Assembly (NCBI GenBank): GCA_964036665.1
Contig: OZ038532.1
Location: 13,906,537 to 13,970,536 of the forward strand
Source of the DNA: Gordius sp. MW1
Taxonomy: Eukaryota; Nematomorpha; Gordioida; Gordea; Gordiidae
Reading direction: 5' to 3'
Length of the DNA: 64,000 nt
The first letter of the stretch is position 1; each line of letters starts with the position of its first letter. The translations under genes and the position numbers were made by a program. The notes beneath the pieces were generated by a model, which did no database searches, was not told the DNA's origin, and was given only the letters and a program-made list of their open reading frames with translations. This document shows positions 12,651-42,280 of the stretch, piece by piece.

Positions 12651-14090
12651 TTTTTTCTTTGAACCGTATTCATCCGATGAAAGTTGTCGTTTTCAGACGT
12701 GGTTTCTATGATCCCAAATAAAAATTTATCAGAATCAGAGAAATGTTACTTTGAAATCATGATCGCATAGTGCATTTTTGAAAAATTAAGCACTCACTTG
12801 CAATACAACAAACTAATCGCAACAATAAAACGTTGTCTTTTGTCAAAATGATAGTTCTCGCAGCTTAAAACCTCTTTTCGGAATTTTATCGAGGGTAATA
12901 GGATTCTCAAATTGGCTTACTTTTATATATTTTTTCATGCTCTTTCACATAGAATTGAAAAAAATAAATATTTTTACCTCAAAATTTTTCACATATTTTT
13001 CTTTCAACCGTATGCATCCGATGAAAGTTGTCGTTTTCAGACGTGGTTTCGATGGTAAAAAGTAAAAATTTATCAGAATCAGAAAACTATTACTTTGAAA
13101 TCATGATCGCATAGAGCCATTTTCAAAAATTAAGCATCACGTTGCGATACAACAAACTAATCGCAACAATAAAACGTTGTCTTTTGTCAAAATGATAGTT
13201 CTCGCAGCTTAAAACCTCTTTTCGGAAGTCAATCGAGGATAATAGGATTCTCAAATTGGCTTACTTTTATATATTTTTTCATGCTCTTTCACATAGAATC
13301 GAAAAAAATAAATATTTTTACCTCAAAATTTTTCACATATTTTTCTTTCAACCGTATGCATCCGATGAGAGTTATCGTTTTCAGACGTGGTTTCGATGAT
13401 AAAAAGTAAAATTTATCAGAATCAGAAAACTATTACTTTAAAATCATGATCGCATAGTGCATTTTTGAAAAATTAAGCACTCACGTTGCGATACAACAAA
13501 CTAATCGCAACAATAAAACGTTGTCTTTTGTCAAAATGATAGTTCTCGCAGCTTAAAACCTCTTTTCGGAAGTTTATCGAGAATAATAGGATTCTCAAAT
13601 TGGCTTACTTTTATATATTTTTTCATGCTCTTTCACATAGAATCGAAAAAAATAAATATTTTTACCTCAAAATTTTTCACATTTTTTCTTTGAACCGTAT
13701 TCATCCGATGAAAGTTGTCGTTTTCAGACGTGGTTTCTATGATCCCAAATAAAAATTTATCAGAATCAGAGAAATGTTACTTTGAAATCATGATCGCATA
13801 GTGCATTTTTGAAAAATTAAGCACTCACTTGCGATACAACAAACTAATCGCAACAATAAAACGTTGTCTTTTGTCAAAATGATAGTTCTCGCAGCTTAAA
13901 ACCTCTTTTCGAATTTTATCGAGGGTAATAGGATTCTCAAATTGGCTTACTTTTATATATTTTTTCATGCTCTTTCACATAGAATTGAAAAAAATAAATA
14001 TTTTTACCTCAAAATTTTTCACATATTTTTCTTTCAACCGTATGCATCCGATGAAAGTTGTCGTTTTCAGACGTGGTTTCGATGGTAAAA
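12374..14090 (+). repeat. c-a-b trimer repeat, ~1,030 bp, under two copies
   Basis: The c monomer (GTTTATCG, CACATTTTTTC, end CCCAAATA) starts at 12,374 and again at 13,405. The a monomer (CACTTGC, GGAATTTTATCGAGGG) starts at 12,717 and again at 13,748, where two G's are lost (TTTTCGAATTTT). The b monomer follows only the first a; the second a is followed by a d monomer (GTTGTAGTTTTC). Confidence 0.75.
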
Positions 14091-15466
14091 AGTAAAAATT
14101 TATCAGAATCAGAAAACTATTACTTTGAAATCATGATCGCATAGAGCCATTTTCAAAAATTAAGCATCACGTTGCGATACAACAAACTAATCGCAACAAT
14201 AAAACGTTGTCTTTTGTCAAAATGATAGTTCTCGCAGCTTAAAACCTCTTTTCGGAAGTCAATCGAGGATAATAGGATTCTCAAATTGGCTTACTTTTAT
14301 ATATTTTTTCATGCTCTTTCACATAGAATCGAAAAAAATAAATATTTTTACCTCAAAATTTTTCACATATTTTTCTTTGAACCGTATTCATCCGATGAAA
14401 GTTGTAGTTTTCAGACGTGGTTTCTATGATCCCAAGTAAAAATTTATCAGAATCAGAGAAATGTTACTTTGAAATCATGATCGCATAGTGTATTTTTGAA
14501 AAATTAAAGACTCACGTTGCGATACAACAAACTAATCGCAACAATAAAACGTTGTCTTTTGTCAAAATGAATAGTTCTGGCAGCTTAAAACCTCTTTTCG
14601 GAAGTAAATCGAGGATAATAGGATTCTCAAATTGGCTTACTTTTATATATTTTTTCATGCTCTTTCACATAGAATCGAAAAAAATAAATATTTTTACCTC
14701 AAAATTTTTCACATATTTTTCTTTGAACCGTATGCATCCGATGAGAGTTATCGTTTTCAGACGTGGTTTCGATGATAAAAAGTAAAAATTTATCAGAATC
14801 AGAAAACTATTACTTTAAAATCATGATCGCATAGTGCATTTTTAAAAAATTAAGCACTCACGTTGCGATACAACAAACTAATCGCAACAATAAAACGTTG
14901 TCTTTTGTCAAAATGATAGTTATCGCAGCTTAAAACCTCTTTTCGGAAATCGAGGATAATAGGATTCTCAAATTGGCTTACTTTTATATATTTTTTCATG
15001 CTCTTTCACATAGAATTGAAAAAAATAAATATTCTACCTCAAAATTTTTCACATATTTTTCTTTGAACCGTATTCATCCGATGAAAGTTATCGTTTTCAG
15101 ACGTGGTTTCTATGAACCCAAGTAAAAATTTATCAGAAACAGAGAAATGTTACTTTGAAATGATGATCGCATAGGGCATTTTTGAAAAATTAAACACTCA
15201 CGTTGAGGTACAACAAACTAATCGCAACAATAAAACGTTGTCTTTTGTCAAAATGAATAGTTCTGGCAGCTTAAAACCTCTTTTCGGAAGTAAATCGAGG
15301 ATAATAGGATTCTCAAATTGGCTTACTTTTATATATTTTTTAATGCTCTTTCACATAGAATCGAAAAAAATAAATATTTTTACCTCAAAATTTTTCACAT
15401 ATTTTTCTTTCAACCGTATGCATCCGATGAAAGTTGTCGTTTTCAGACGTGGTTTCGATGGTAAAA

Positions 15467-18400
15467 AGTAAAAATTTATCAGAATCAGAAAACTATTACT
15501 TTGAAATCATGATCGCATAGAGCCATTTTCAAAAATTAAGCATCACGTTGCGATACAACAAACTAATCGCAACAATAAAACGTTGTCTTTTGTCAAAATG
15601 ATAGTTCTCGCAGCTTAAAACCTCTTTTCGGAAGTCAATCGAGGATAATAGGATTCTCAAATTGGCTTACTTTTATATATTTTTTCATGCTCTTTCACAT
15701 AGAGAAAAAAATAAATATTTTTACCTCAAAATTTTTCACATATTTTTCTTTGAACCGTATTCATCCGATGAAAGTTGTAGTTTTCAGACGTGGTTTCTAT
15801 GATCCCAAGTAAAAATTTATCAGAATCAGAGAAATGTTACTTTGAAATCATGATCGCATAGTGTATTTTTGAAAAATTAAAGACTCACGTTGCGATACAA
15901 CAAACTAATCGCAACAATAAAACGTTGTCTTTTGTCAAAATGAATAGTTCTGGCAGCTTAAAACCTCTTTTCGGAAGTAAATCGAGGATAATAGGATTCT
16001 CAAATTGGCTTACTTTTATATATTTTTTCATGCTCTTTCACATAGAATCGAAAAAAATAAATATTTTTACCTCAAAATTTTTCACATATTTTTCTTTGAA
16101 CCGTATGCATCCGATGAGAGTTATCGTTTTCAGACGTGGTTTCGATGATAAAAAGTAAAAATTTATCAGAATCAGAAAACTATTACTTTAAAATCATGAT
16201 CGCATAGTGCATTTTTAAAAAATTAAGCACTCACGTTGCGATACAACAAACTAATCGCAACAATAAAACGTTGTCTTTTGTCAAAATGATAGTTATCGCA
16301 GCTTAAAACCTCTTTTCGGAAATCGAGGATAATAGGATTCTCAAATTGGCTTACTTTTATATATTTTTTCATGCTCTTTCACATAGAATTGAAAAAAATA
16401 AATATTCTACCTCAAAATTTTTCACATATTTTTCTTTGAACCGTATTCATCCGATGAAAGTTATCGTTTTCAGACGTGGTTTCTATGAACCCAAGTAAAA
16501 ATTTATCAGAATCAGAGAAATGTTACTTTGAAATGATGATCGCATAGGGCATTTTTGAAAAATTAAACACTCACGTTGCGGTACAACAAACTAATCGCAA
16601 CAATAAAACGTTGTCTTTTGTCAAAATGAATAGTTCTGGCAGCTTAAAACCTCTTTTCGGAAGTAAATCGAGGATAATAGGATTCTCAAATTGGCTTACT
16701 TTATATATTTTTTAATGCTCTTTCACATAGAATCGAAAAAAATAAATATTTTTACCTCAAAATTTTTCACATATTTTTCTTTCAACCGTATGCATCCGAT
16801 GAAAGTTGTCGTTTTCAGACGTGGTTTCGATGGTAAAAAGTAAAATTTATCAGAATCAGAAAACTATTACTTTGAAATCATGATCGCATAGAGCCATTTT
16901 CAAAAATTAAGCATCACGTTGCGATACAACAAACTAATCGCAACAATAAAACGTTGTCTTTTGTCAAAATGATAGTTCTCGCAGCTTAAAACCTCTTTTC
17001 GGAAGTCAATCGAGGATAATAGGATTCTCAAATTGGCTTACTTTTATATATTTTTTCATGCTCTTTCACATAGAATTGAAAAAAATAAATATTTTTACCT
17101 CAAAATTTTTCACATATTTTTCTTTGAACCGTATTCATCCGATGAAAGTTGTCGTTTTCAGACGTGGTTTCTATGATCCCAAGTAAAAATTTATCAGAAT
17201 CAGAGAAATGTTACTTTGTAATCATGATCGCATAGTGCATTTTTGAGAAATTAAGCACTCACGTTGCGATACAACAAACTAATCGCAACAATAACGTTGT
17301 CTTTTGTCAAAATGATAGTTCTCGCAGCTTAAAACCTCTATTCGGAAGTCAATCGAGGATAATAGGATTCTCAAATTGGCTTACTTTTATATATTTTTTC
17401 ATGCTCTTTCACATAGAATTGAAAAAAATAAATATTTTTACCTCAAAATTTTTCACATATTTTTCTTTGAACCGTATTCATCCGATGAAAGTTGTCGTTT
17501 TCAGACGTGGTTTCTATGATCCCAAGTAAAAATTTATCAGAATCAGAGAAATGTTACTTTATAATCATGATCGCATAGTGCATTTTTGAAAAATTAAACA
17601 CTCACGTTGCGATACAACAAACTAATCGCAACAATAAAACGTTGTCTTTTGTCAAAATGAATAGTTCTGGCAGCTTAAAACCTCTTTTCATAAGTAAATC
17701 GAGGATAATAGGATTCTCAAATTGGCTTACTTTTATATATTTTTTCATGCTCTTTCACATAGAATTGAAAAAAATAAATATTTTTACCTCAAAATTTTTC
17801 ACATATTTTTCTTTGAATCGTATTCATCCGATGAAAGTTGTCGTTTTCAGACGTGGTTTCTATGATCCCAAGTAAAAATTTATCAGAATCTGAAAACTAT
17901 TACTTTGAAATCATGATCGCATAGTGCATTTTTGAAAAATTAAGCACTCACGTTGCGATACAACAAACTAATCGCAACAATAAAACGTTCTCTTTTGTCA
18001 AAATGATAGTTCTCGCAGCTTAAAACCTCTTTTCGGAAGTCAATCGAGGATAATAGGATTCTCAAATTGGCTTACTTTTATATATTTTTTCATGCTCTTT
18101 CACATAGAATTGAAAAAAATAAATATTTTTACCTCAAAATTTTTCACATATTTTTCTTTGAACCGTATTCATCCGATGAAAGTTGTCGTTTTCAGACGTG
18201 GTTTCTATGATCCCAATTAAAAATTTATCAGAATCTGAAAACTATTACTTTGAAATCATGATCGCATAGAGCCATTTTCAAAAATTAAGCATCACGTTGC
18301 GATACAACAAACTAATCGCAACAATAAAACGTTGTCTTTTGTCAAAATGATAGTTCTCGCAGCTTAAAACCTCTTTTCGGAAGTCAATCGAGGATAATAG

Positions 18401-20623
18401 GATTCTCAAATTGGCTTACTTTTATATATTTTTTCATGCTCTTTCACATAGAATGGAAAAAAATAAATATTCTAACTCAAAATTTTTCACATATTTTTCT
18501 TTGAACCGTATTCATCTGATGAAAGTCATCGTTTTCAGACGTGGTTTCTATGAACCCAAGTAAAAATTTATCAGAATCAGAGAAATGTTACTTTAAAATC
18601 ATGATCGCATAGAGCCATTTTCAAAAATTAAGCATCACGTTGCGATACAACAAACTAATCGCAACAATAAAACGTTGTCTTTTGTCAAAATGAATAGTTC
18701 TGGCAGCTTAAAACCTCTTTTCGGAAGTAAATCGAGGATAATAGGATTCTCAAATTGGCTTACTTTTATATATTTTTTCATGCTCTTTCACATAGAATTG
18801 AAAAAAATAAATATTTTTACCTCAAAATTTTTCACATATTTTTCTTTCAACCGTATGCATCCGATGAGAGTTGTCGTTTTCAGACGTGGTTTCGATGATA
18901 AAAAGTAAAAATTTATCAGAATCAGAAAACTATTACTTAAAAATCATGATCGCATAGTGCATTTTTGAAAAATTAAGCACTCACGTTGCGATACAACAAA
19001 CTAATCGCAACAATAAAACGTTGTCTTTTGTCAAAATGATAGTTCTCGCAGCTTAAAACCTCTTTTCGGAAGTCAATCGAGGATAATAGGAATCTCAAAT
19101 TGGCTTACTTTTATATATTTTTTCATGCTCTTTCAGATAGAATTGAAAAAAATAAATATTTTTACCTCAAAATTTTTCACATATTTTTCTTTCAACCGTA
19201 TGCATCCGATGAAAGTTGTCGTTTTCAGACGTGGTTTCGATGATAAAAAGTAAAAATTTATCAGAATCAGAAAACTATTACTTTGAAATCATGATCGCAT
19301 AGAGCCATTTTCAAAAATTAAGCATCACGTTGCGATACAACAAACTAATCGCAACAATAAAACGTTGTCTTTTGTCAAAATGATAGTTCTCGCAGCTTAA
19401 AACCTCTTTTCGGAAGTCAATCGAGGATAATAGGATTCTCAAATTGGCTTACTTTTATATACTTTTTCATGCTCTTTCACATAGAATTGAAAAAAATAAA
19501 TATTCTTACCTCAAAATTTTTCACATATTTTTCTTTGAAACGTATTCATCCGATGAAAGTTGTCGTTTTCAGACGTGGTTTCTATGATCCCAAGTAAAAA
19601 TTTATCAGAATCAGAGAAATGTTACTTTATAATCATGATCGCATAGTGCATTTTTGAAAAATTAAACACTCACGTTGCGATACAACAAACTAATCGCAAC
19701 AATAAAACGTTGTCTTTTGTCAAAATGAATAGTTCTGGCAGCTTAAAACCTCTTTTCATAAGTAAATCGAGGATAATAGGATTCTCAAATTGGCTTACTT
19801 TTATATATTTTTTCATGCTCTTTCACATAGAATCGAAAAAAATAAATATTTTTACCTCAAAATTTTTCACATATTTTTCTTTGAACCGTATGCATCCGAT
19901 GAGAGTTATCGTTTTCAGACGTGGTTTCGATGATAAAAAGTAAAAATTTATCAGAATCAGAAAACTATTACTTTAAAATCATGATCGCATAGTGCATTTT
20001 TAAAAAATTAAGCACTCACGTTGCGATACAACAAACTAATCGCAACAATAAAACGTTGTCTTTTGTCAAAATGATAGTTATCGCAGCTTAAAACCTCTTT
20101 TCGGAAATCGAGGATAATAGGATTCTCAAATTGGCTTACTTTTATATATTTTTTCATGCTCTTTCACATAGAATTGAAAAAAATAAATATTCTACCTCAA
20201 AATTTTTCACATATTTTTCTTTGAACCGTATTCATCCGATGAAAGTTATCGTTTTCAGACGTGGTTTCTATGAACCCAAGTAAAAATTTATCAGAATCAG
20301 AGAAATGTTACTTTGAAATGATGATCGCATAGGGCATTTTTGAAAAATTAAACACTCACGTTGCGGTACAACAAACTAATCGCAACAATAAAACGTTGTC
20401 TTTTGTCAAAATGAATAGTTCTGGCAGCTTAAAACCTCTTTTCGGAAGTAAATCGAGGATAATAGGATTCTCAAATTGGCTTACTTTATATATTTTTTAA
20501 TGCTCTTTCACATAGAATCGAAAAAAATAAATATTTTTACCTCAAAATTTTTCACATATTTTTCTTTCAACCGTATGCATCCGATGAAAGTTGTCGTTTT
20601 CAGACGTGGTTTCGATGGTAAAA
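15467..20623 (+). repeat. 15-mer HOR unit, 5,157 bp (first)
   Basis: Order d' e f g' h i j k l m n o p f g'. Markers: d' CATAGAGAAAAAAAT and GTTGTAGTTTTC; g' CTTACTTTATATA (one T lost); h AGAGCC with GATCCC end; i TTTGTAATC and AATAACGTTG; j TTTATAATC and TTTCATAAG; k ACGTTCTC; l AATGGAAAA and CATCTGATG; m GAGAGTTGTCG; n TCAGATAGAAT; o TATACTTTTTC and GAAACG; p combines the 5' part of j with the 3' part of e. Start-to-start spacing to the next h (20,624) is exactly 5,157 bp. Confidence 0.87.
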
Positions 20624-23600
20624 AGTAAAATTTATCAGAATCAGAAAACTATTACTTTGAAATCATGATCGCATAGAGCCATTTTCAAAAATTAAGCATC
20701 ACGTTGCGATACAACAAACTAATCGCAACAATAAAACGTTGTCTTTTGTCAAAATGATAGTTCTCGCAGCTTAAAACCTCTTTTCGGAAGTCAATCGAGG
20801 ATAATAGGATTCTCAAATTGGCTTACTTTTATATATTTTTTCATGCTCTTTCACATAGAATCGAAAAAAATAAATATTTTTACCTCAAAATTTTTCACAT
20901 ATTTTTCTTTGAACCGTATTCATCCGATGAAAGTTGTCGTTTTCAGACGTGGTTTCTATGATCCCAAGTAAAAATTTATCAGAATCAGAGAAATGTTACT
21001 TTGTAATCATGATCGCATAGTGCATTTTTGAGAAATTAAGCACTCACGTTGCGATACAACAAACTAATCGCAACAATAAAACGTTCTCTTTTGTCAAAAT
21101 GATAGTTCTCGCAGCTTAAAACCTCTTTTCGGAAGTCAATCGAGGATAATAGGATTCTCAAATTGGCTTACTTTTATATATTTTTTCATGCTCTTTCACA
21201 TAGAATTGAAAAAAATAAATATTTTTACCTCAAAATTTTTCACATATTTTTCTTTGAACCGTATTCATCCGATGAAAGTTGTCGTTTTCAGACGTGGTTT
21301 CTATGATCCCAATTAAAAATTTATCAGAATCTGAAAACTATTACTTTGAAATCATGATCGCATAGAGCCATTTTCAAAAATTAAGCATCACGTTGCGATA
21401 CAACAAACTAATCGCAACAATAAAACGTTGTCTTTTGTCAAAATGATAGTTCTCGCAGCTTAAAACCTCTTTTCGGAAGTCAATCGAGGATAATAGGATT
21501 CTCAAATTGGCTTACTTTTATATATTTTTTCATGCTCTTTCACATAGAATGGAAAAAAATAAATATTCTAACTCAAAATTTTTCACATTTATTTCTTTGA
21601 ACCGTATTCATCTGATGAAAGTCATCGTTTTCAGACGTGGTTTCTATGAACCCAAGTAAAAATTTATCAGAATCAGAGAAATGTTACTTTAAAATCATGA
21701 TCGCATAGAGCCATTTTCAAAAATTAAGCATCACGTTGCGATACAACAAACTAATCGCAACAATAAAACGTTGTCTTTTGTCAAAATGAATAGTTCTGGC
21801 AGCTTAAAACCTCTTTTCGGAAGTAAATCGAGGATAATAGGATTCTCAAATTGGCTTACTTTTATATATTTTTTCATGCTCTTTCACATAGAATTGAAAA
21901 AAATAAATATTTTTACCTCAAAATTTTTCACATATTTTTCTTTCAACCGTATGCATCCGATGAGAGTTGTCGTTTTCAGACGTGGTTTCGATGATAAAAA
22001 GTAAAAATTTATCAGAATCAGAAAACTATTACTTAAAAATCATGATCGCATAGTGCATTTTTGAAAAATTAAGCACTCACGTTGCGATACAACAAACTAA
22101 TCGCAACAATAAAACGTTGTCTTTTGTCAAAATGATAGTTCTCGCAGCTTAAAACCTCTTTTCGGAAGTCAATCGAGGATAATAGGAATCTCAAATTGGC
22201 TTACTTTTATATATTTTTTCATGCTCTTTCAGATAGAATTGAAAAAAATAAATATTTTTACCTCAAAATTTTTCACATATTTTTCTTTCAACCGTATGCA
22301 TCCGATGAAAGTTGTCGTTTTCAGACGTGGTTTCGATGATAAAAAGTAAAAATTTATCAGAATCAGAAAACTATTACTTTGAAATCATGATCGCATAGAG
22401 CCATTTTCAAAAATTAAGCATCACGTTGCGATACAACAAACTAATCGCAACAATAAAACGTTGTCTTTTGTCAAAATGATAGTTCTCGCAGCTTAAAACC
22501 TCTTTTCGGAAGTCAATCGAGGATAATAGGATTCTCAAATTGGCTTACTTTTATATACTTTTTCATGCTCTTTCACATAGAATTGAAAAAAATAAATATT
22601 CTTACCTCAAAATTTTTCACATATTTTTCTTTGAAACGTATTCATCCGATGAAAGTTGTCGTTTTCAGACGTGGTTTCTATGATCCCAAGTAAAAATTTA
22701 TCAGAATCAGAGAAATGTTACTTTATAATCATGATCGCATAGTGCATTTTTGAAAAATTAAACACTCACGTTGCGATACAACAAACTAATCGCAACAATA
22801 AAACGTTGTCTTTTGTCAAAATGAATAGTTCTGGCAGCTTAAAACCTCTTTTCATAAGTAAATCGAGGATAATAGGATTCTCAAATTGGCTTACTTTTAT
22901 ATATTTTTTCATGCTCTTTCACATAGAATCGAAAAAAATAAATATTTTTACCTCAAAATTTTTCACATATTTTTCTTTGAACCGTATGCATCCGATGAGA
23001 GTTATCGTTTTCAGACGTGGTTTCGATGATAAAAAGTAAAAATTTATCAGAATCAGAAAACTATTACTTTAAAATCATGATCGCATAGTGCATTTTTAAA
23101 AAATTAAGCACTCACGTTGCGATACAACAAACTAATCGCAACAATAAAACGTTGTCTTTTGTCAAAATGATAGTTATCGCAGCTTAAAACCTCTTTTCGG
23201 AAATCGAGGATAATAGGATTCTCAAATTGGCTTACTTTTATATATTTTTTCATGCTCTTTCACATAGAATTGAAAAAAATAAATATTCTACCTCAAAATT
23301 TTTCACATATTTTTCTTTGAACCGTATTCATCCGATGAAAGTTATCGTTTTCAGACGTGGTTTCTATGAACCCAAGTAAAAATTTATCAGAATCAGAGAA
23401 ATGTTACTTTGAAATGATGATCGCATAGGGCATTTTTGAAAAATTAAACACTCACGTTGCGGTACAACAAACTAATCGCAACAATAAAACGTTGTCTTTT
23501 GTCAAAATGAATAGTTCTGGCAGCTTAAAACCTCTTTTCGGAAGTAAATCGAGGATAATAGGATTCTCAAATTGGCTTACTTTATATATTTTTTAATGCT

Positions 23601-23719
23601 CTTTCACATAGAATCGAAAAAAATAAATATTTTTACCTCAAAATTTTTCACATATTTTTCTTTCAACCGTATGCATCCGATGAAAGTTGTCGTTTTCAGA
23701 CGTGGTTTCGATGGTAAAA
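20624..23719 (+). repeat. 9-mer HOR unit, 3,096 bp, derived from the 11-mer core by loss of two monomers
   Basis: Order h i/k l m n o p f g'. The second monomer begins as i (TTTGTAATC, TTTTTGAGAAATT) and ends as k (ACGTTCTC, CCCAATTA), so j is missing along with one i/k equivalent. The switch lies between about 21,032 and 21,080, a span that contains the inverted repeat. A private CACATTTATTTC in l (near 21,590) is seen only here. Confidence 0.85.
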
Positions 23720-24735
23720 AGTAAAATTTATCAGAATCAGAAAACTATTACTTTGAAATCATGATCGCATAGAGCCATTTTCAAAAATTAAGCATCACGT
23801 TGCGATACAACAAACTAATCGCAACAATAAAACGTTGTCTTTTGTCAAAATGATAGTTCTCGCAGCTTAAAACCTCTTTTCGGAAGTCAATCGAGGATAA
23901 TAGGATTCTCAAATTGGCTTACTTTTATATATTTTTTCATGCTCTTTCACATAGAATCGAAAAAAATAAATATTTTTACCTCAAAATTTTTCACATATTT
24001 TTCTTTGAACCGTATTCATCCGATGAAAGTTGTCGTTTTCAGACGTGGTTTCTATGATCCCAAGTAAAAATTTATCAGAATCAGAGAAATGTTACTTTGT
24101 AATCATGATCGCATAGTGCATTTTTGAGAAATTAAGCACTCACGTTGCGATACAACAAACTAATCGCAACAATAACGTTGTCTTTTGTCAAAATGATAGT
24201 TCTCGCAGCTTAAAACCTCTATTCGGAAGTCAATCGAGGATAATAGGATTCTCAAATTGGCTTACTTTTATATATTTTTTCATGCTCTTTCACATAGAAT
24301 TGAAAAAAATAAATATTTTTACCTCAAAATTTTTCACATATTTTTCTTTGAACCGTATTCATCCGATGAAAGTTGTCGTTTTCAGACGTGGTTTCTATGA
24401 TCCCAAGTAAAAATTTATCAGAATCAGAGAAATGTTACTTTATAATCATGATCGCATAGTGCATTTTTGAAAAATTAAACACTCACGTTGCGATACAACA
24501 AACTAATCGCAACAATAAAACGTTGTCTTTTGTCAAAATGAATAGTTCTGGCAGCTTAAAACCTCTTTTCGGAAGTAAATCGAGGATAATAGGATTCTCA
24601 AATTGGCTTACTTTTATATATTTTTTCATGCTCTTTCACATAGAATTGAAAAAAATAAATATTTTTACCTCAAAATTTTTCACATATTTTTCTTTGAACC
24701 GTATTCATCCGATGAAAGTTGTCGTTTTCAGACGT
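23720..24735 (+). repeat. h-i-j/c trimer at the end of the 35-monomer segment
   Basis: Monomers h and i are as in the 15-mer. The third monomer has the j 5' module (TTTATAATC, AAACACTCACG, GAATAG) but TTTCGGAAG instead of TTTCATAAG, and ends CCCAAATA like c. This mosaic monomer carries the junction between the two 12,035-bp copies. Confidence 0.8.
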
Positions 24736-27700: not shown

Positions 27701-30700
27701 CTTACTTTTATATATTTTTTCATGCTCTTTCACATAGAGAAAAAAATAAATATTTTTACCTCAAAATTTTTCACATATTTTTCTTTGAACCGTATTCATC
27801 CGATGAAAGTTGTAGTTTTCAGACGTGGTTTCTATGATCCCAAGTAAAAATTTATCAGAATCAGAGAAATGTTACTTTGAAATCATGATCGCATAGTGTA
27901 TTTTTGAAAAATTAAAGACTCACGTTGCGATACAACAAACTAATCGCAACAATAAAACGTTGTCTTTTGTCAAAATGAATAGTTCTGGCAGCTTAAAACC
28001 TCTTTTCGGAAGTAAATCGAGGATAATAGGATTCTCAAATTGGCTTACTTTTATATATTTTTTCATGCTCTTTCACATAGAATCGAAAAAAATAAATATT
28101 TTTACCTCAAAATTTTTCACATATTTTTCTTTGAACCGTATGCATCCGATGAGAGTTATCGTTTTCAGACGTGGTTTCGATGATAAAAAGTAAAAATTTA
28201 TCAGAATCAGAAAACTATTACTTTAAAATCATGATCGCATAGTGCATTTTTAAAAAATTAAGCACTCACGTTGCGATACAACAAACTAATCGCAACAATA
28301 AAACGTTGTCTTTTGTCAAAATGATAGTTATCGCAGCTTAAAACCTCTTTTCGGAAATCGAGGATAATAGGATTCTCAAATTGGCTTACTTTTATATATT
28401 TTTTCATGCTCTTTCACATAGAATTGAAAAAAATAAATATTCTACCTCAAAATTTTTCACATATTTTTCTTTGAACCGTATTCATCCGATGAAAGTTATC
28501 GTTTTCAGACGTGGTTTCTATGAACCCAAGTAAAAATTTATCAGAATCAGAGAAATGTTACTTTGAAATGATGATCGCATAGGGCATTTTTGAAAAATTA
28601 AACACTCACGTTGCGGTACAACAAACTAATCGCAACAATAAAACGTTGTCTTTTGTCAAAATGAATAGTTCTGGCAGCTTAAAACCTCTTTTCGGAAGTA
28701 AATCGAGGATAATAGGATTCTCAAATTGGCTTACTTTATATATTTTTTAATGCTCTTTCACATAGAATCGAAAAAAATAAATATTTTTACCTCAAAATTT
28801 TTCACATATTTTTCTTTCAACCGTATGCATCCGATGAAAGTTGTCGTTTTCAGACGTGGTTTCGATGGTAAAAAGTAAAATTTATCAGAATCAGAAAACT
28901 ATTACTTTGAAATCATGATCGCATAGAGCCATTTTCAAAAATTAAGCATCACGTTGCGATACAACAAACTAATCGCAACAATAAAACGTTGTCTTTTGTC
29001 AAAATGATAGTTCTCGCAGCTTAAAACCTCTTTTCGGAAGTCAATCGAGGATAATAGGATTCTCAAATTGGCTTACTTTTATATATTTTTTCATGCTCTT
29101 TCACATAGAATCGAAAAAAATAAATATTTTTACCTCAAAATTTTTCACATATTTTTCTTTGAACCGTATTCATCCGATGAAAGTTGTCGTTTTCAGACGT
29201 GGTTTCTATGATCCCAAGTAAAAATTTATCAGAATCAGAGAAATGTTACTTTGTAATCATGATCGCATAGTGCATTTTTGAGAAATTAAGCACTCACGTT
29301 GCGATACAACAAACTAATCGCAACAATAACGTTGTCTTTTGTCAAAATGATAGTTCTCGCAGCTTAAAACCTCTATTCGGAAGTCAATCGAGGATAATAG
29401 GATTCTCAAATTGGCTTACTTTTATATATTTTTTCATGCTCTTTCACATAGAATTGAAAAAAATAAATATTTTTACCTCAAAATTTTTCACATATTTTTC
29501 TTTGAACCGTATTCATCCGATGAAAGTTGTCGTTTTCAGACGTGGTTTCTATGATCCTAAGTAAAAATTTATCAGAATCAGAGAAATGTTACTTTATAAT
29601 CATGATCGCATAGTGCATTTTTGAAAAATTAAACACTCACGTTGCGATACAACAAACTAATCGCAACAATAAAACGTTGTCTTTTGTCAAAATGAATAGT
29701 TCTGGCAGCTTAAAACCTCTTTTCATAAGTAAATCGAGGATAATAGGATTCTCAAATTGGCTTACTTTTATATATTTTTTCATGCTCTTTCACATAGAAT
29801 TGAAAAAAATAAATATTTTTACCTCAAAATTTTTCACATATTTTTCTTTGAATCGTATTCATCCGATGAAAGTTGTCGTTTTCAGACGTGGTTTCTATGA
29901 TCCCAAGTAAAAATTTATCAGAATCTGAAAACTATTACTTTGAAATCATGATCGCATAGTGCATTTTTGAAAAATTAAGCACTCACGTTGCGATACAACA
30001 AACTAATCGCAACAATAAAACGTTCTCTTTTGTCAAAATGATAGTTCTCGCAGCTTAAAACCTCTTTTCGGAAGTCAATCGAGGATAATAGGATTCTCAA
30101 ATTGGCTTACTTTTATATATTTTTTCATGCTCTTTCACATAGAATTGAAAAAAATAAATATTTTTACCTCAAAATTTTTCACATATTTTTCTTTGAACCG
30201 TATTCATCCGATGAAAGTTGTCGTTTTCAGACGTGGTTTCTATGATCCCAATTAAAAATTTATCAGAATCTGAAAACTATTACTTTGAAATCATGATCGC
30301 ATAGAGCCATTTTCAAAAATTAAGCATCACGTTGCGATACAACAAACTAATCGCAACAATAAAACGTTGTCTTTTGTCAAAATGATAGTTCTCGCAGCTT
30401 AAAACCTCTTTTCGGAAGTCAATCGAGGATAATAGGATTCTCAAATTGGCTTACTTTTATATATTTTTTCATGCTCTTTCACATAGAATGGAAAAAAATA
30501 AATATTCTAACTCAAAATTTTTCACATATTTTTCTTTGAACCGTATTCATCTGATGAAAGTCATCGTTTTCAGACGTGGTTTCTATGAACCCAAGTAAAA
30601 ATTTATCAGAATCAGAGAAATGTTACTTTAAAATCATGATCGCATAGAGCCATTTTCAAAAATTAAGCATCACGTTGCGATACAACAAACTAATCGCAAC

Positions 30701-32658
30701 AATAAAACGTTGTCTTTTGTCAAAATGAATAGTTCTGGCAGCTTAAAACCTCTTTTCGGAAGTAAATCGAGGATAATAGGATTCTCAAATTGGCTTACTT
30801 TTATATATTTTTTCATGCTCTTTCACATAGAATTGAAAAAAATAAATATTTTTACCTCAAAATTTTTCACATATTTTTCTTTCAACCGTATGCATCCGAT
30901 GAGAGTTGTCGTTTTCAGACGTGGTTTCGATGATAAAAAGTAAAAATTTATCAGAATCAGAAAACTATTACTTAAAAATCATGATCGCATAGTGCATTTT
31001 TGAAAAATTAAGCACTCACGTTGCGATACAACAAACTAATCGCAACAATAAAACGTTGTCTTTTGTCAAAATGATAGTTCTCGCAGCTTAAAACCTCTTT
31101 TCGGAAGTCAATCGAGGATAATAGGAATCTCAAATTGGCTTACTTTTATATATTTTTTCATGCTCTTTCAGATAGAATTGAAAAAAATAAATATTTTTAC
31201 CTCAAAATTTTTCACATATTTTTCTTTCAACCGTATGCATCCGATGAAAGTTGTCGTTTTCAGACGTGGTTTCGATGATAAAAAGTAAAAATTTATCAGA
31301 ATCAGAAAACTATTACTTTGAAATCATGATCGCATAGAGCCATTTTCAAAAATTAAGCATCACGTTGCGATACAACAAACTAATCGCAACAATAAAACGT
31401 TGTCTTTTGTCAAAATGATAGTTCTCGCAGCTTAAAACCTCTTTTCGGAAGTCAATCGAGGATAATAGGATTCTCAAATTGGCTTACTTTTATATACTTT
31501 TTCATGCTCTTTCACATAGAATTGAAAAAAATAAATATTCTTACCTCAAAATTTTTCACATATTTTTCTTTGAAACGTATTCATCCGATGAAAGTTGTCG
31601 TTTTCAGACGTGGTTTCTATGATCCCAAGTAAAAATTTATCAGAATCAGAGAAATGTTACTTTATAATCATGATCGCATAGTGCATTTTTGAAAAATTAA
31701 ACACTCACGTTGCGATACAACAAACTAATCGCAACAATAAAACGTTGTCTTTTGTCAAAATGAATAGTTCTGGCAGCTTAAAACCTCTTTTCATAAGTAA
31801 ATCGAGGATAATAGGATTCTCAAATTGGCTTACTTTTATATATTTTTTCATGCTCTTTCACATAGAATCGAAAAAAATAAATATTTTTACCTCAAAATTT
31901 TTCACATATTTTTCTTTGAACCGTATGCATCCGATGAGAGTTATCGTTTTCAGACGTGGTTTCGATGATAAAAAGTAAAAATTTATCAGAATCAGAAAAC
32001 TATTACTTTAAAATCATGATCGCATAGTGCATTTTTAAAAAATTAAGCACTCACGTTGCGATACAACAAACTAATCGCAACAATAAAACGTTGTCTTTTG
32101 TCAAAATGATAGTTATCGCAGCTTAAAACCTCTTTTCGGAAATCGAGGATAATAGGATTCTCAAATTGGCTTACTTTTATATATTTTTTCATGCTCTTTC
32201 ACATAGAATTGAAAAAAATAAATATTCTACCTCAAAATTTTTCACATATTTTTCTTTGAACCGTATTCATCCGATGAAAGTTATCGTTTTCAGACGTGGT
32301 TTCTATGAACCCAAGTAAAAATTTATCAGAATCAGAGAAATGTTACTTTGAAATGATGATCGCATAGGGCATTTTTGAAAAATTAAACACTCACGTTGCG
32401 GTACAACAAACTAATCGCAACAATAAAACGTTGTCTTTTGTCAAAATGAATAGTTCTGGCAGCTTAAAACCTCTTTTCGGAAGTAAATCGAGGATAATAG
32501 GATTCTCAAATTGGCTTACTTTATATATTTTTTAATGCTCTTTCACATAGAATCGAAAAAAATAAATATTTTTACCTCAAAATTTTTCACATATTTTTCT
32601 TTCAACCGTATGCATCCGATGAAAGTTGTCGTTTTCAGACGTGGTTTCGATGGTAAAA
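24736..32658 (+). repeat. 12,035-bp segment, copy 2 (first 23 monomers)
   Basis: It follows copy 1 directly and repeats the same monomer order with very few differences. Those noticed are TGCGATAC for TGCAATAC at the first hairpin and ACCTATAAAT for ACCTCAAAAT near 25,013. Correspondence ends at about 32,655: copy one (20,624) has the two-base-shortened GTAAAATTTATC and continues into an h monomer, whereas copy two has GTAAAAATTTATC and continues into a d' monomer (CATAGAGAAAAAAAT). The copies are therefore collinear for about 7.9 kb. Confidence 0.87.
27502..32658 (+). repeat. 15-mer HOR unit, 5,157 bp (second)
   Basis: Same order d' to g' as the unit at 15,467, shifted by 12,035 bp. It ends with GTAAAAATTTATC rather than GTAAAATTTATC and is followed by another d' instead of h, which makes it head-to-tail with the 13-mer at 32,659. 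A GATCCTAAG variant near 29,556 is private. Confidence 0.88.
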
Positions 32659-35600
32659 AGTAAAAATTTATCAGAATCAGAAAACTATTACTTTGAAATC
32701 ATGATCGCATAGAGCCATTTTCAAAAATTAAGCATCACGTTGCGATACAACAAACTAATCGCAACAATAAAACGTTGTCTTTTGTCAAAATGATAGTTCT
32801 CGCAGCTTAAAACCTCTTTTCGGAAGTCAATCGAGGATAATAGGATTCTCAAATTGGCTTACTTTTATATATTTTTTCATGCTCTTTCACATAGAGAAAA
32901 AAATAAATATTTTTACCTCAAAATTTTTCACATATTTTTCTTTGAACCGTATTCATCCGATGAAAGTTGTAGTTTTCAGACGTGGTTTCTATGATCCCAA
33001 GTAAAAATTTATCAGAATCAGAGAAATGTTACTTTGAAATCATGATCGCATAGTGTATTTTTGAAAAATTAAAGACTCACGTTGCGATACAACAAACTAA
33101 TCGCAACAATAAAACGTTGTCTTTTGTCAAAATGAATAGTTCTGGCAGCTTAAAACCTCTTTTCGGAAGTAAATCGAGGATAATAGGATTCTCAAATTGG
33201 CTTACTTTTATATATTTTTTCATGCTCTTTCACATAGAATCGAAAAAAATAAATATTTTTACCTCAAAATTTTTCACATATTTTTCTTTGAACCGTATGC
33301 ATCCGATGAGAGTTATCGTTTTCAGACGTGGTTTCGATGATAAAAAGTAAAAATTTATCAGAATCAGAAAACTATTACTTTAAAATCATGATCGCATAGT
33401 GCATTTTTAAAAAATTAAGCACTCACGTTGCGATACAACAAACTAATCGCAACAATAAAACGTTGTCTTTTGTCAAAATGATAGTTATCGCAGCTTAAAA
33501 CCTCTTTTCGGAAATCGAGGATAATAGGATTCTCAAATTGGCTTACTTTTATATATTTTTTCATGCTCTTTCACATAGAATTGAAAAAAATAAATATTCT
33601 ACCTCAAAATTTTTCACATATTTTTCTTTGAACCGTATTCATCCGATGAAAGTTATCGTTTTCAGACGTGGTTTCTATGAACCCAAGTAAAAATTTATCA
33701 GAATCAGAGAAATGTTACTTTGAAATGATGATCGCATAGGGCATTTTTGAAAAATTAAACACTCACGTTGCGGTACAACAAACTAATCGCAACAATAAAA
33801 CGTTGTCTTTTGTCAAAATGAATAGTTCTGGCAGCTTAAAACCTCTTTTCGGAAGTAAATCGAGGATAATAGGATTCTCAAATTGGCTTACTTTATATAT
33901 TTTTTAATGCTCTTTCACATAGAATCGAAAAAAATAAATATTTTTACCTCAAAATTTTTCACATATTTTTCTTTCAACCGTATGCATCCGATGAAAGTTG
34001 TCGTTTTCAGACGTGGTTTCGATGGTAAAAAGTAAAATTTATCAGAATCAGAAAACTATTACTTTGAAATCATGATCGCATAGAGCCATTTTCAAAAATT
34101 AAGCATCACGTTGCGATACAACAAACTAATCGCAACAATAAAACGTTGTCTTTTGTCAAAATGATAGTTCTCGCAGCTTAAAACCTCTTTTCGGAAGTCA
34201 ATCGAGGATAATAGGATTCTCAAATTGGCTTACTTTTATATATTTTTTCATGCTCTTTCACATAGAATCGAAAAAAATAAATATTTTTACCTCAAAATTT
34301 TTCACATATTTTTCTTTGAACCGTATTCATCCGATGAAAGTTGTCGTTTTCAGACGTGGTTTCTATGATCCCAAGTAAAAATTTATCAGAATCAGAGAAA
34401 TGTTACTTTGTAATCATGATCGCATAGTGCATTTTTGAGAAATTAAGCACTCACGTTGCGATACAACAAACTAATCGCAACAATAACGTTGTCTTTTGTC
34501 AAAATGATAGTTCTCGCAGCTTAAAACCTCTATTCGGAAGTCAATCGAGGATAATAGGATTCTCAAATTGGCTTACTTTTATATATTTTTTCATGCTCTT
34601 TCACATAGAATTGAAAAAAATAAATATTTTTACCTCAAAATTTTTCACATATTTTTCTTTGAACCGTATTCATCCGATGAAAGTTGTCGTTTTCAGACGT
34701 GGTTTCTATGATCCCAAGTAAAAATTTATCAGAATCAGAGAAATGTTACTTTATAATCATGATCGCATAGTGCATTTTTGAAAAATTAAACACTCACGTT
34801 GCGATACAACAAACTAATCGCAACAATAAAACGTTGTCTTTTGTCAAAATGAATAGTTCTGGCAGCTTAAAACCTCTTTTCATAAGTAAATCGAGGATAA
34901 TAGGATTCTCAAATTGGCTTACTTTTATATATTTTTTCATGCTCTTTCACATAGAATTGAAAAAAATAAATATTTTTACCTCAAAATTTTTCACATATTT
35001 TTCTTTGAATCGTATTCATCCGATGAAAGTTGTCGTTTTCAGACGTGGTTTCTATGATCCCAAGTAAAAATTTATCAGAATCTGAAAACTATTACTTTGA
35101 AATCATGATCGCATAGTGCATTTTTGAAAAATTAAGCACTCACGTTGCGATACAACAAACTAATCGCAACAATAAAACGTTCTCTTTTGTCAAAATGATA
35201 GTTCTCGCAGCTTAAAACCTCTTTTCGGAAGTCAATCGAGGATAATAGGATTCTCAAATTGGCTTACTTTTATATATTTTTTCATGCTCTTTCACATAGA
35301 ATTGAAAAAAATAAATATTTTTACCTCAAAATTTTTCACATATTTTTCTTTGAACCGTATTCATCCGATGAAAGTTGTCGTTTTCAGACGTGGTTTCTAT
35401 GATCCCAATTAAAAATTTATCAGAATCTGAAAACTATTACTTTGAAATCATGATCGCATAGAGCCATTTTAAAAAATTAAGCATCACGTTGCGATACAAC
35501 AAACTAATCGCAACAATAAAACGTTGTCTTTTGTCAAAATGATAGTTCTCGCAGCTTAAAACCTCTTTTCGGAAGTCAATCGAGGATAATAGGATTCTCA

Positions 35601-37123
35601 AATTGGCTTACTTTTATATATTTTTTCATGCTCTTTCACATAGAATGGAAAAAAATAAATATTCTAACTCAAAATTTTTCACATATTTTTCTTTGAACCG
35701 TATTCATCTGATGAAAGTCATCGTTTTCAGACGTGGTTTCTATGAACCCAAGTAAAAATTTATCAGAATCAGAGAAATGTTACTTTAAAATCATGATCGC
35801 ATAGAGCCATTTTCAAAAATTAAGCATCACGTTGCGATACAACAAACTAATCGCAACAATAAAACGTTGTCTTTTGTCAAAATGATAGTTCTCGCAGCTT
35901 AAAACCTCTTTTCGGAAGTCAATCGAGGATAATAGGATTCTCAAATTGGCTTACTTTTATATACTTTTTCATGCTCTTTCACATAGAATTGAAAAAAATA
36001 AATATTCTTACCTCAAAATTTTTCACATATTTTTCTTTGAAACGTATTCATCCGATGAAAGTTGTCGTTTTCAGACGTGGTTTCTATGATCCCAAGTAAA
36101 AATTTATCAGAATCAGAGAAATGTTACTTTATAATCATGATCGCATAGTGCATTTTTGAAAAATTAAACACTCACGTTGCGATACAACAAACTAATCGCA
36201 ACAATAAAACGTTGTCTTTTGTCAAAATGAATAGTTCTGGCAGCTTAAAACCTCTTTTCATAAGTAAATCGAGGATAATAGGATTCTCAAATTGGCTTAC
36301 TTTTATATATTTTTTCATGCTCTTTCACATAGAATCGAAAAAAATAAATATTTTTACCTCAAAATTTTTCACATATTTTTCTTTGAACCGTATGCATCCG
36401 ATGAGAGTTATCGTTTTCAGACGTGGTTTCGATGATAAAAAGTAAAAATTTATCAGAATCAGAAAACTATTACTTTAAAATCATGATCGCATAGTGCATT
36501 TTTAAAAAATTAAGCACTCACGTTGCGATACAACAAACTAATCGCAACAATAAAACGTTGTCTTTTGTCAAAATGATAGTTATCGCAGCTTAAAACCTCT
36601 TTTCGGAAATCGAGGATAATAGGATTCTCAAATTGGCTTACTTTTATATTTTTTCATGCTCTTTCACATAGAATTGAAAAAAATAAATATTCTACCTCAA
36701 AATTTTTCACATATTTTTCTTTGAACCGTATTCATCCGATGAAAGTTATCGTTTTCAGACGTGGTTTCTATGAACCCAAGTAAAAATTTATCAGAATCAG
36801 AGAAATGTTACTTTGAAATGATGATCGCATAGGGCATTTTTGAAAAATTAAACACTCACGTTGCGGTACAACAAACTAATCGCAACAATAAAACGTTGTC
36901 TTTTGTCAAAATGAATAGTTCTGGCAGCTTAAAACCTCTTTTCGGAAGTAAATCGAGGATAATAGGATTCTCAAATTGGCTTACTTTATATATTTTTTAA
37001 TGCTCTTTCACATAGAATCGAAAAAAATAAATATTTTTACCTCAAAATTTTTCACATATTTTTCTTTCAACCGTATGCATCCGATGAAAGTTGTCGTTTT
37101 CAGACGTGGTTTCGATGGTAAAA
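32659..37123 (+). repeat. 13-mer HOR unit, 4,465 bp, deletion derivative of the 15-mer
   Basis: Order d' e f g' h i j k l m/o p f g'. The tenth monomer (from about 35,755) starts like m (TCAGAGAAATG, TTTAAAATC, AGAGCC) but has GATAG, TATACTTTTTC and GAAACG like o, so n and one m/o equivalent are lost. The f monomer has a 2-bp deletion, CTTTTATATTTTTTC near 36,645. Unit start 37,124 minus 32,659 is 4,465 bp. Confidence 0.87.
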
Positions 37124-40100
37124 AGTAAAAATTTATCAGAATCAGAAAACTATTACTTTGAAATCATGATCGCATAGAGCCATTTTCAAAAATTAAGCAT
37201 CACGTTGCGATACAACAAACTAATCGCAACAATAAAACGTTGTCTTTTGTCAAAATGATAGTTCTCGCAGCTTAAAACCTCTTTTCGGAAGTCAATCGAG
37301 GATAATAGGATTCTCAAATTGGCTTACTTTTATATATTTTTTCATGCTCTTTCACATAGAGAAAAAAATAAATATTTTTACCTCAAAATTTTTCACATAT
37401 TTTTCTTTGAACCGTATTCATCCGATGAAAGTTGTAGTTTTCAGACGTGGTTTCTATGATCCCAAGTAAAAATTTATCAGAATCAGAGAAATGTTACTTT
37501 GAAATCATGATCGCATAGTGTATTTTTGAAAAATTAAAGACTCACGTTGCGATACAACAAACTAATCGCAACAATAAAACGTTGTCTTTTGTCAAAATGA
37601 ATAGTTCTGGCAGCTTAAAACCTCTTTTCGGAAGTAAATCGAGGATAATAGGATTCTCAAATTGGCTTACTTTTATATATTTTTTCATGCTCTTTCACAT
37701 AGAATCGAAAAAAATAAATATTTTTACCTCAAAATTTTTCACATATTTTTCTTTGAACCGTATGCATCCGATGAGAGTTATCGTTTTCAGACGTGGTTTC
37801 GATGATAAAAAGTAAAAATTTATCAGAATCAGAAAACTATTACTTTAAAATCATGATCGCATAGTGCATTTTTAAAAAATTAAGCACTCACGTTGCGATA
37901 CAACAAACTAATCGCAACAATAAAACGTTGTCTTTTGTCAAAATGATAGTTATCGCAGCTTAAAACCTCTTTTCGGAAATCGAGGATAATAGGATTCTCA
38001 AATTGGCTTACTTTTATATATTTTTTCATGCTCTTTCACATAGAATTGAAAAAAATAAATATTCTACCTCAAAATTTTTCACATATTTTTCTTTGAACCG
38101 TATTCATCCGATGAAAGTTATCGTTTTCAGACGTGGTTTCTATGAACCCAAGTAAAAATTTATCAGAATCAGAGAAATGTTACTTTGAAATGATGATCGC
38201 ATAGGGCATTTTTGAAAAATTAAACACTCACGTTGCGGTACAACAAACTAATCGCAACAATAAAACGTTGTCTTTTGTCAAAATGAATAGTTCTGGCAGC
38301 TTAAAACCTCTTTTCGGAAGTAAATCGAGGATAATAGGATTCTCAAATTGGCTTACTTTATATATTTTTTAATGCTCTTTCACATAGAATCGAAAAAAAT
38401 AAATATTTTTACCTCAAAATTTTTCACATATTTTTCTTTCAACCGTATGCATCCGATGAAAGTTGTCGTTTTCAGACGTGGTTTCGATGGTAAAAAGTAA
38501 AATTTATCAGAATCAGAAAACTATTACTTTGAAATCATGATCGCATAGAGCCATTTTCAAAAATTAAGCATCACGTTGCGATACAACAAACTAATCGCAA
38601 CAATAAAACGTTGTCTTTTGTCAAAATGATAGTTCTCGCAGCTTAAAACCTCTTTTCGGAAGTCAATCGAGGATAATAGGATTCTCAAATTGGCTTACTT
38701 TTATATATTTTTTCATGCTCTTTCACATAGAATCGAAAAAAATAAATATTTTTACCTCAAAATTTTTCACATATTTTTCTTTGAACCGTATTCATCCGAT
38801 GAAAGTTGTCGTTTTCAGACGTGGTTTCTATGATCCCAAGTAAAAATTTATCAGAATCAGAGAAATGTTACTTTGTAATCATGATCGCATAGTGCATTTT
38901 TGAGAAATTAAGCACTCACGTTGCGATACAACAAACTAATCGCAACAATAACGTTGTCTTTTGTCAAAATGATAGTTCTCGCAGCTTAAAACCTCTATTC
39001 GGAAGTCAATCGAGGATAATAGGATTCTCAAATTGGCTTACTTTTATATATTTTTTCATGCTCTTTCACATAGAATTGAAAAAAATAAATATTTTTACCT
39101 CAAAATTTTTCACATATTTTTCTTTGAACCGTATTCATCCGATGAAAGTTGTCGTTTTCAGACGTGGTTTCTATGATCCCAAGTAAAAATTTATCAGAAT
39201 CAGAGAAATGTTACTTTATAATCATGATCGCATAGTGCATTTTTGAAAAATTAAACACTCACGTTGCGATACAACAAACTAATCGCAACAATAAAACGTT
39301 GTCTTTTGTCAAAATGAATAGTTCTGGCAGCTTAAAACCTCTTTTCATAAGTAAATCGAGGATAATAGGATTCTCAAATTGGCTTACTTTTATATATTTT
39401 TTCATGCTCTTTCACATAGAATTGAAAAAAATAAATATTTTTACCTCAAAATTTTTCACATATTTTTCTTTGAATCGTATTCATCCGATGAAAGTTGTCG
39501 TTTTCAGACGTGGTTTCTATGATCCCAAGTAAAAATTTATCAGAATCTGAAAACTATTACTTTGAAATCATGATCGCATAGTGCATTTTTGAAAAATTAA
39601 GCACTCACGTTGCGATACAACAAACTAATCGCAACAATAAAACGTTCTCTTTTGTCAAAATGATAGTTCTCGCAGCTTAAAACCTCTTTTCGGAAGTCAA
39701 TCGAGGATAATAGGATTCTCAAATTGGCTTACTTTTATATATTTTTTCATGCTCTTTCACATAGAATTGAAAAAAATAAATATTTTTACCTCAAAATTTT
39801 TCACATATTTTTCTTTGAACCGTATTCATCCGATGAAAGTTGTCGTTTTCAGACGTGGTTTCTATGATCCCAATTAAAAATTTATCAGAATCTGAAAACT
39901 ATTACTTTGAAATCATGATCGCATAGAGCCATTTTAAAAAATTAAGCATCACGTTGCGATACAACAAACTAATCGCAACAATAAAACGTTGTCTTTTGTC
40001 AAAATGATAGTTCTCGCAGCTTAAAACCTCTTTTCGGAAGTCAATCGAGGATAATAGGATTCTCAAATTGGCTTACTTTTATATATTTTTTCATGCTCTT

Positions 40101-42280
40101 TCACATAGAATGGAAAAAAATAAATATTCTAACTCAAAATTTTTCACATATTTTTCTTTGAACCGTATTCATCTGATGAAAGTCATCGTTTTCAGACGTG
40201 GTTTCTATGAACCCAAGTAAAAATTTATCAGAATCAGAGAAATGTTACTTTAAAATCATGATCGCATAGAGCCATTTTCAAAAATTAAGCATCACGTTGC
40301 GATACAACAAACTAATCGCAACAATAAAACGTTGTCTTTTGTCAAAATGAATAGTTCTGGCAGCTTAAAACCTCTTTTCGGAAGTAAATCGAGGATAATA
40401 GGATTCTCAAATTGGCTTACTTTTATATATTTTTTCATGCTCTTTCACATAGAATTGAAAAAAATAAATATTTTTACCTCAAAATTTTTCACATATTTTT
40501 CTTTCAACCGTATGCATCCGATGAGAGTTGTCGTTTTCAGACGTGGTTTCGATGATAAAAAGTAAAAATTTATCAGAATCAGAAAACTATTACTTAAAAA
40601 TCATGATCGCATAGTGCATTTTTGAAAAATTAAGCACTCACGTTGCGATACAACAAACTAATCGCAACAATAAAACGTTGTCTTTTGTCAAAATGATAGT
40701 TCTCGCAGCTTAAAACCTCTTTTCGGAAGTCAATCGAGGATAATAGGAATCTCAAATTGGCTTACTTTTATATATTTTTTCATGCTCTTTCAGATAGAAT
40801 TGAAAAAAATAAATATTTTTACCTCAAAATTTTTCACATATTTTTCTTTCAACCGTATGCATCCGATGAAAGTTGTCGTTTTCAGACGTGGTTTCGATGA
40901 TAAAAAGTAAAAATTTATCAGAATCAGAAAACTATTACTTTGAAATCATGATCGCATAGAGCCATTTTCAAAAATTAAGCATCACGTTGCGATACAACAA
41001 ACTAATCGCAACAATAAAACGTTGTCTTTTGTCAAAATGATAGTTCTCGCAGCTTAAAACCTCTTTTCGGAAGTCAATCGAGGATAATAGGATTCTCAAA
41101 TTGGCTTACTTTTATATACTTTTTCATGCTCTTTCACATAGAATTGAAAAAAATAAATATTCTTACCTCAAAATTTTTCACATATTTTTCTTTGAAACGT
41201 ATTCATCCGATGAAAGTTGTCGTTTTCAGACGTGGTTTCTATGATCCCAAGTAAAAATTTATCAGAATCAGAGAAATGTTACTTTATAATCATGATCGCA
41301 TAGTGCATTTTTGAAAAATTAAACACTCACGTTGCGATACAACAAACTAATCGCAACAATAAAACGTTGTCTTTTGTCAAAATGAATAGTTCTGGCAGCT
41401 TAAAACCTCTTTTCATAAGTAAATCGAGGATAATAGGATTCTCAAATTGGCTTACTTTTATATATTTTTTCATGCTCTTTCACATAGAATCGAAAAAAAT
41501 AAATATTTTTACCTCAAAATTTTTCACATATTTTTCTTTGAACCGTATGCATCCGATGAGAGTTATCGTTTTCAGACGTGGTTTCGATGATAAAAAGTAA
41601 AAATTTATCAGAATCAGAAAACTATTACTTTAAAATCATGATCGCATAGTGCATTTTTAAAAAATTAAGCACTCACGTTGCGATACAACAAACTAATCGC
41701 AACAATAAAACGTTGTCTTTTGTCAAAATGATAGTTATCGCAGCTTAAAACCTCTTTTCGGAAATCGAGGATAATAGGATTCTCAAATTGGCTTACTTTT
41801 ATATATTTTTTCATGCTCTTTCACATAGAATTGAAAAAAATAAATATTCTACCTCAAAATTTTTCACATATTTTTCTTTGAACCGTATTCATCCGATGAA
41901 AGTTATCGTTTTCAGACGTGGTTTCTATGAACCCAAGTAAAAATTTATCAGAATCAGAGAAATGTTACTTTGAAATGATGATCGCATAGGGCATTTTTGA
42001 AAAATTAAACACTCACGTTGCGGTACAACAAACTAATCGCAACAATAAAACGTTGTCTTTTGTCAAAATGAATAGTTCTGGCAGCTTAAAACCTCTTTTC
42101 GGAAGTAAATCGAGGATAATAGGATTCTCAAATTGGCTTACTTTATATATTTTTTAATGCTCTTTCACATAGAATCGAAAAAAATAAATATTTTTACCTC
42201 AAAATTTTTCACATATTTTTCTTTCAACCGTATGCATCCGATGAAAGTTGTCGTTTTCAGACGTGGTTTCGATGGTAAAA
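37124..42280 (+). repeat. 15-mer HOR unit, 5,157 bp (third)
   Basis: Full order d' e f g' h i j k l m n o p f g', including the normal m, n and o that the preceding 13-mer lacks. The l monomer shares the private CATTTTAAAAAATT (near 39,930) with the 13-mer l (near 35,466), which suggests recent shared ancestry with that neighbour. From 38,496 to 42,280 it forms an exact 3,785-bp 11-mer (h to g') that repeats head-to-tail into the next h at 42,281. Confidence 0.88.

Follow-up and report, generated by a model that had tools for sequence, protein, structure and literature searches.

How did tandem units of 35, 15, 13, 11 and 9 monomers, all apparently drawn from one ordered set, come to be nested within a single satellite, and how much of the history of the exchanges that produced them can still be read? 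The window, by which we mean the whole stretch of 64,000 nucleotides that was analysed, is a single head-to-tail satellite row (positions 2-64000, plus strand, as are all features described below; TRF period 345, 186.2 copies, 93% matches) with a monomer of ~344 bp and a GC content of ~30% throughout. It contains no open reading frame of 120 or more amino acids and no visible inverted copy (20-mers common to both strands within the window: 0), and thus has the long head-to-tail, non-coding monomer array typical of a satellite with higher-order repeats (HORs). The original prediction placed the nested HORs at 12.7-42.3 kb; the tandem array fills the entire window and carries further tandem units outside that region, namely, 4-mer units with a 1,376-bp period (NOST NOST NO.., 8905-12346; the block 8700-11004 matches 10076-12380 with 4 mismatches), a 5-mer tandem duplication of 1,723 bp (abfgY abfgY, 43631-47076) and a 3-mer duplication with a 1,020-bp offset (47103-49163; 47103-48143 matches 48123-49163 with 1 mismatch). 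A 1,100-bp piece of the array had no match in plasmids and phages, and one of its most frequent 20-mers had none in viral contigs and prokaryote genomes, as expected for a eukaryotic satellite; a 15-base piece searched in paper texts found no match either. Literature on satellites of 344 or 345 bp likewise yielded no source for the array; one paper encountered there deals with a Peromyscus centromere satellite. We consider it highly probable that this is a eukaryotic satellite array in which the nested HORs arose via repeated in-register homologous exchange between misaligned copies.

The 184 complete monomers that could be cut cover positions 320-63556, both window ends being left out of the monomer counts; when aligned, 102 of the 184 are distinct, and over the whole window a pair of monomers differs on average at 17.8 positions (~5%). 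Neighbouring monomers differ more than pairs in general (20.1 positions on average vs 17.8), and only one of the 183 adjacent pairs is near-identical. Alternation of two monomer classes is loose rather than strict (AB 55, BA 50, BB 45 and AA 19, with 7 of the 184 monomers unclassed). Variable positions are linked in short blocks, for example, 18-26, 51-56, 82-104 except 101, 162-171 and 317-326; the monomers are accordingly mosaics of the kind that conversion or older exchange would produce. A dimeric, 172-bp origin of the monomer was rejected: the consensus lacks half-unit periodicity, and its best circular self-match (0.348) occurs at shifts other than 172.

When offsets from 300 to 39,999 were ranked by the count of exact 60-base matches, all five of the predicted spacings, exact to the base, were recovered among the 11 strongest: 12,035 ranked first, 3,785 third, 5,157 seventh, 4,465 eighth and 3,096 eleventh, and the further strong offsets, 21,657, 9,622, 13,407 and 8,250, are sums of these five. 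The longest near-identical blocks span 7,979 bp with 5 mismatches at offset 12,035, 3,706 bp with 0 mismatches at 4,465, 3,366 bp with 2 mismatches at 5,157, 3,290 bp with 5 mismatches at 3,785 and 3,171 bp with 3 mismatches at 3,096, that is, with 99.85-100% identity. Diverged monomers thus reside inside near-identical unit copies, with 17.8 differences per monomer pair as against 0-5 per block of 3.2-8.0 kb.

With the monomers lettered by average-linkage clustering (cut at 4.5 differences; W covers two subtypes), the string from monomer 36 (m36) to m122 begins UVRUWOPQW OPQWXYZabcCdPQW (15) XabcCdPQW (9) XY and continues UVRUWOPQW OPQWXYZabcCdPQW (15) OPQWXYZaedPQW (13) OPQWXYZabcCdPQW (15); in other words, it holds the 15-mer three times, along with one 13-mer, one 9-mer and a repeat of 35 monomers. 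The same ordered string is therefore reused at all five scales, as had been claimed, and the 35-mer indeed contains a 15-mer and a 9-mer. The first 35-mer copy (12,035 bp) occupies 12652-24686, and the part of the second copy that is still in register with it occupies 24687-32665 (matching 12652-20630 over the 7,979-bp block), with a shared run of 24 monomer letters that is the longest in the window. The 35-mer, present in ~1.7 copies, is a single duplication, of which 24 monomers still match in order, rather than an HOR array. Within and beyond it lie the 15-mer copy A (m45-m59, 15781-20939, OPQWXYZabcCdPQW), the 9-mer XabcCdPQW (3,096 bp, 20940-24035, without two monomers), the 15-mer copy B (m80-m94, 27816-32972), the 13-mer copy C (m95-m107, 32973-37437, also without two monomers) and the 15-mer copy D (m108-m122, 37438-42596); the 15/13-mers are thus three in tandem and one apart, in an array that reaches both window ends. 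The 3,785-bp 11-mer core, XYZabcCdPQW, is found at 17155-20939 and also at 29190-32972 and 38812-42596.

The role of monomer order was controlled with 500 order shuffles, counting at each lag the pairs with two or fewer differences. Within m36-m122, lags 35 (22 pairs) and 15 (18 pairs) lie above the most that any lag reached in any shuffle (14 pairs), and lags 13, 9 and 11 (12, 10 and 9 pairs, respectively) do not, standing out instead through the contiguity of their matches over 3.2-3.7 kb. Over the whole window, lags 35, 15, 13 and 11 (22, 18, 17 and 16 pairs) exceed the shuffle maximum of 11, which lag 9 (11 pairs) equals.

Comparison of the junction monomers with their putative parents indicates how the units came about. 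In the 9-mer, m60 matches X through position 93 and Z from 139 onwards, and in the 13-mer, m103 matches b through 64 and C from 162 onwards; the two chimeras show no further differences, and each entails a net change of -2 monomers (junction intervals 21033-21079, where two offset blocks and the chimera sites overlap, and 35788-35885). Monomer d of the 11-mer (m56, 19566-19911) has Y on its 5' side, up to position 193, and O on its 3' side, from 268; the order that preceded the 11-mer is supported by the neighbouring 5-mer region, where a Y-type monomer follows a C-like one (m129-m130). At the 35-mer junction (24687-24752), m70 is Y-type up to 307, its last site differing from R, which precedes the first copy, and m71 is U-type from 29, with changes of its own at 292 and 293 and a difference from m36 at 114. 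At the first 15-mer junction (32520-32665), m93 is a Q-type monomer that lacks the type's changes at 46, 113 and 233, and m94 is of the W1 type along its whole length. The switches accordingly fall at monomer positions 94-138 (9-mer), 65-161 (13-mer) and 194-267 (11-mer) or cross a monomer border, from 308 to 28 of the next monomer in the 35-mer and from 234 to 30 of the next in the 15-mer. By this comparison, the 11-mer, 15-mer and 35-mer are tandem gains, and the 9-mer and 13-mer are losses of exactly two monomers, so the proposal that the unit lengths are related by loss of whole monomers holds for two of the five lengths, the other three being gains.

Around six junctions (the five HOR junctions and that of the 5-mer), the parents are identical for 45-175 bp. 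Given the low divergence and the clean chimeric junctions, six exchange events can be placed to within these distances and, in part, ordered. The tracts are longer than random ones (median 41, Mann-Whitney p 0.005), but the 15-mer parents are closer than the null pairs, of two possible values for the 35-mer the one used was 66 rather than 53, and six events are few, so we make no claim from this comparison about a preference of exchange for longer identical tracts.

As for the order of the exchanges, which the array had been proposed to record, it is partly recoverable. The 11-mer gain appears to be early, since its junction monomer, d, is itself contained in the later copies. Between copies C and D there is no difference over 3,706 bp, each of them differing from B at 2 sites, and A at position 90 of monomer a is found only in m102 and m115 among the seven a monomers; given the zero differences and this common change, C and D look like sisters, in which case the 13-mer loss occurred at or after the C/D split. 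The simplest, partial order would run from the 11-mer gain through the 35-mer gain and two 15-mer gains to the 13-mer loss in one sister copy. From this one array, more than one full order can be derived: only the first 35-mer copy has the 9-mer junction, and the 9-mer deletion may either have been lost from the second copy by a later exchange or have arisen after the 35-mer gain. A T at position 265 in the W of copy A distinguishes that monomer from the six other W2 monomers and is common elsewhere in the window, and conversion is possible at this site.

Mechanistically, each exchange would fuse the 5' portion of one monomer with the 3' portion of another, thereby adding or removing a whole number of monomers, with the base-exact spacing following from in-register homology. 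Either unequal crossover between sister chromatids or break-induced replication that restarted out of register could be the route, and gene conversion could have made some of the chimeras. What the sequence itself shows is a monomer ladder, chimeric junctions, whole-monomer steps and duplication that is younger centrally than near the window ends. A narrower form of this explanation, which we regard as quite possible though tentative, is that the nesting arose mainly by break-induced replication, through forks that collapsed and restarted out of register at a putatively active centromere, and not by reciprocal unequal crossover; PMC8997354 describes Rice's model, proposed for complex nested HORs, as pushing older HORs to the sides. 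The distribution of divergence agrees with such a layering. Measured between nearest three-monomer blocks, divergence is 0.03% at m71-m94, rises to ~0.2% in the flanking blocks and to ~0.6% next to those, and reaches 1.2-2.2% in the outer parts (2.2% at m0-m19, 1.6% at m152-m181). Because partners beyond a window end are out of reach for the monomers near it, one-sided comparisons over up to 45 monomers were made as well, and these concur: differences per monomer are 7.4 (m0-34), 1.3 (m35-94) and 4.0 (m95-136, the last few truncated by one position) when only partners to the right are used, and 2.7 (m45-94), 1.7 (m95-136) and 6.6 (m137-181) when only those to the left are. The youngest duplications are central in the window and are flanked by older ones; because the array reaches both window ends, the window centre need not be the true centre of the array. 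Nevertheless, break-induced replication and unequal crossover leave the same junctions, the central minimum comes only 6th of 182 when the profile is shifted circularly, and the mutagenic signature expected under break-induced replication is weak (4 of 89 private substitutions in adjacent pairs vs 0.7 expected, with shuffles reaching 8). The array is plausibly centromeric or pericentromeric.

In-register exchange by either route raises the matter of step size. Gains and losses of whole monomers were simulated in a simple model, with 40 runs for each setting and three numbers of events. Three measures, namely, the number of lags with runs of four or more, the longest run and few adjacent duplicates, were jointly reproduced at a mean step of 25 in 6, 9 and 10 of the 40 runs and at a mean step of 15 in 4, 1 and 3 of 40, but none of the nine settings with a mean step of 2, 6 or 10 yielded a single such run out of 40. 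Short-step exchange alone thus does not fit; in this model, which has free parameters and does not separate the pathways, plain exchange would suffice if the steps are long. The more ambitious proposition that the window represents the growing core of a non-primate centromere, with long-step exchange (4-35 monomers) strongly favoured over single-monomer exchange, we consider unlikely; if it were true, the 'young centre, old flanks' layering of human centromeres would be present within 64 kb.

That the near-identical 35-mer and 15-mer copies are false duplications introduced by assembly is, in our view, very improbable: the copies, which are known here from the assembly, are up to 100% identical over 3.7 kb, but they carry changes of their own at 25015-25016, 29558 and 39936, and two junction monomers are exact homologous chimeras. 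Least credible of all, to the point of being nearly dismissible, is a site-specific recombinase or transposon-like element that moves fixed blocks of monomers, which would account for the base-exact spacings. No single position lies in all five switch intervals and at least three are needed to hit them all, which argues against one fixed recombination site or a site-specific enzyme; in addition, the window has no ORF of 120 or more codons, and a search of 6 kb (12001-18000) against Rfam gave no family at E<=1.

The array that we attribute to homologous exchange is not alpha satellite. The monomer of alpha satellite is ~171 bp, and the present period is 345 bp without half-unit periodicity; the core pattern of the CENP-B box, which part of the alpha satellite monomers carry, had 0 matches in the window with 1 mismatch allowed, where 5 would be expected by chance in shuffled sequence. 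Within an alpha satellite HOR, monomers are described in PMC8997354 as 50-70% identical, whereas here the 344-bp monomers are ~5% different. The likeness lies in the organization: PMC11157248 describes cascading HORs with several nested periods on human chromosome 3, namely, a 17-mer that has subfragments of 15 and 2 monomers, and a 36-mer; there, as here, ordered monomers are reused within one HOR and length variants differ by whole monomers. The main array of human chromosome 3 extends, in that account, over several megabases, whereas there are few copies per scale in the window. PMC8997354 describes a human centromere in layers, with HORs of 4, 7, 8 and 11 monomers, and explains HORs by Smith's unequal exchange or by break-induced replication. 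Smith's model of 1976, in which HORs result from mutation and out-of-register exchange (as presented in PMC8997354 and PMC8122249), is a model rather than a sequence family, and short random steps failed to reproduce the present array in simulation.

As regards HORs in general, the original view that such a record is unusual beyond primate alpha satellite goes too far, given the HORs of the beetle Tribolium castaneum (TCAST; cited in PMC7598501) and the dimer and trimer HORs of Chrysolina leaf beetles (PMC8122249); these, too, are non-primate satellites with higher-order organization. As far as the descriptions can be compared, the TCAST HORs mix heterogeneous monomers with extraneous sequence, whereas the array described here is one TRF array over the whole window. 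The reports of nesting that were found concern human alpha satellite, and our literature search found no paper on nested insect HORs. The present array works like the human and beetle HORs, apart from the low copy number per unit in the window. It illustrates a well-known process clearly and with unusual legibility rather than representing a new kind of element, and arrays of this type are useful test cases for unequal crossover vs break-induced replication outside primates.

Several minor observations on the monomers may be added. Four short monomers, 11-25 bp below the usual length, lie at 47422 and 48442 (333 bp), 59116 (328 bp) and 59788 (320 bp), all outside the main HOR region, and copy-specific changes occur in close pairs at 25015-25016, at 21589 and 21591 and at monomer positions 192-193. 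A fairly conserved part of the monomer (positions 110-134, for example, in the monomer at 16812-17154) harbors a perfect dyad, TTGCGAT-N11-ATCGCAA, that is intact in 158 of the 184 monomers and could be a putative protein site; the consensus contains 7 dyads with 7-base arms, overlapping ones being counted apart, vs 1.7 expected, a number reached in 25 of 1000 shuffles. The predicted single-strand DNA fold of one monomer is not more stable than those of shuffles (z -0.22). Finally, the ratio of observed to expected CpG over positions 1-64000 of this 30%-GC satellite is 1.56, where depletion would be expected from germline methylation; this value speaks against a vertebrate, and Hymenoptera can show a CpG surplus.
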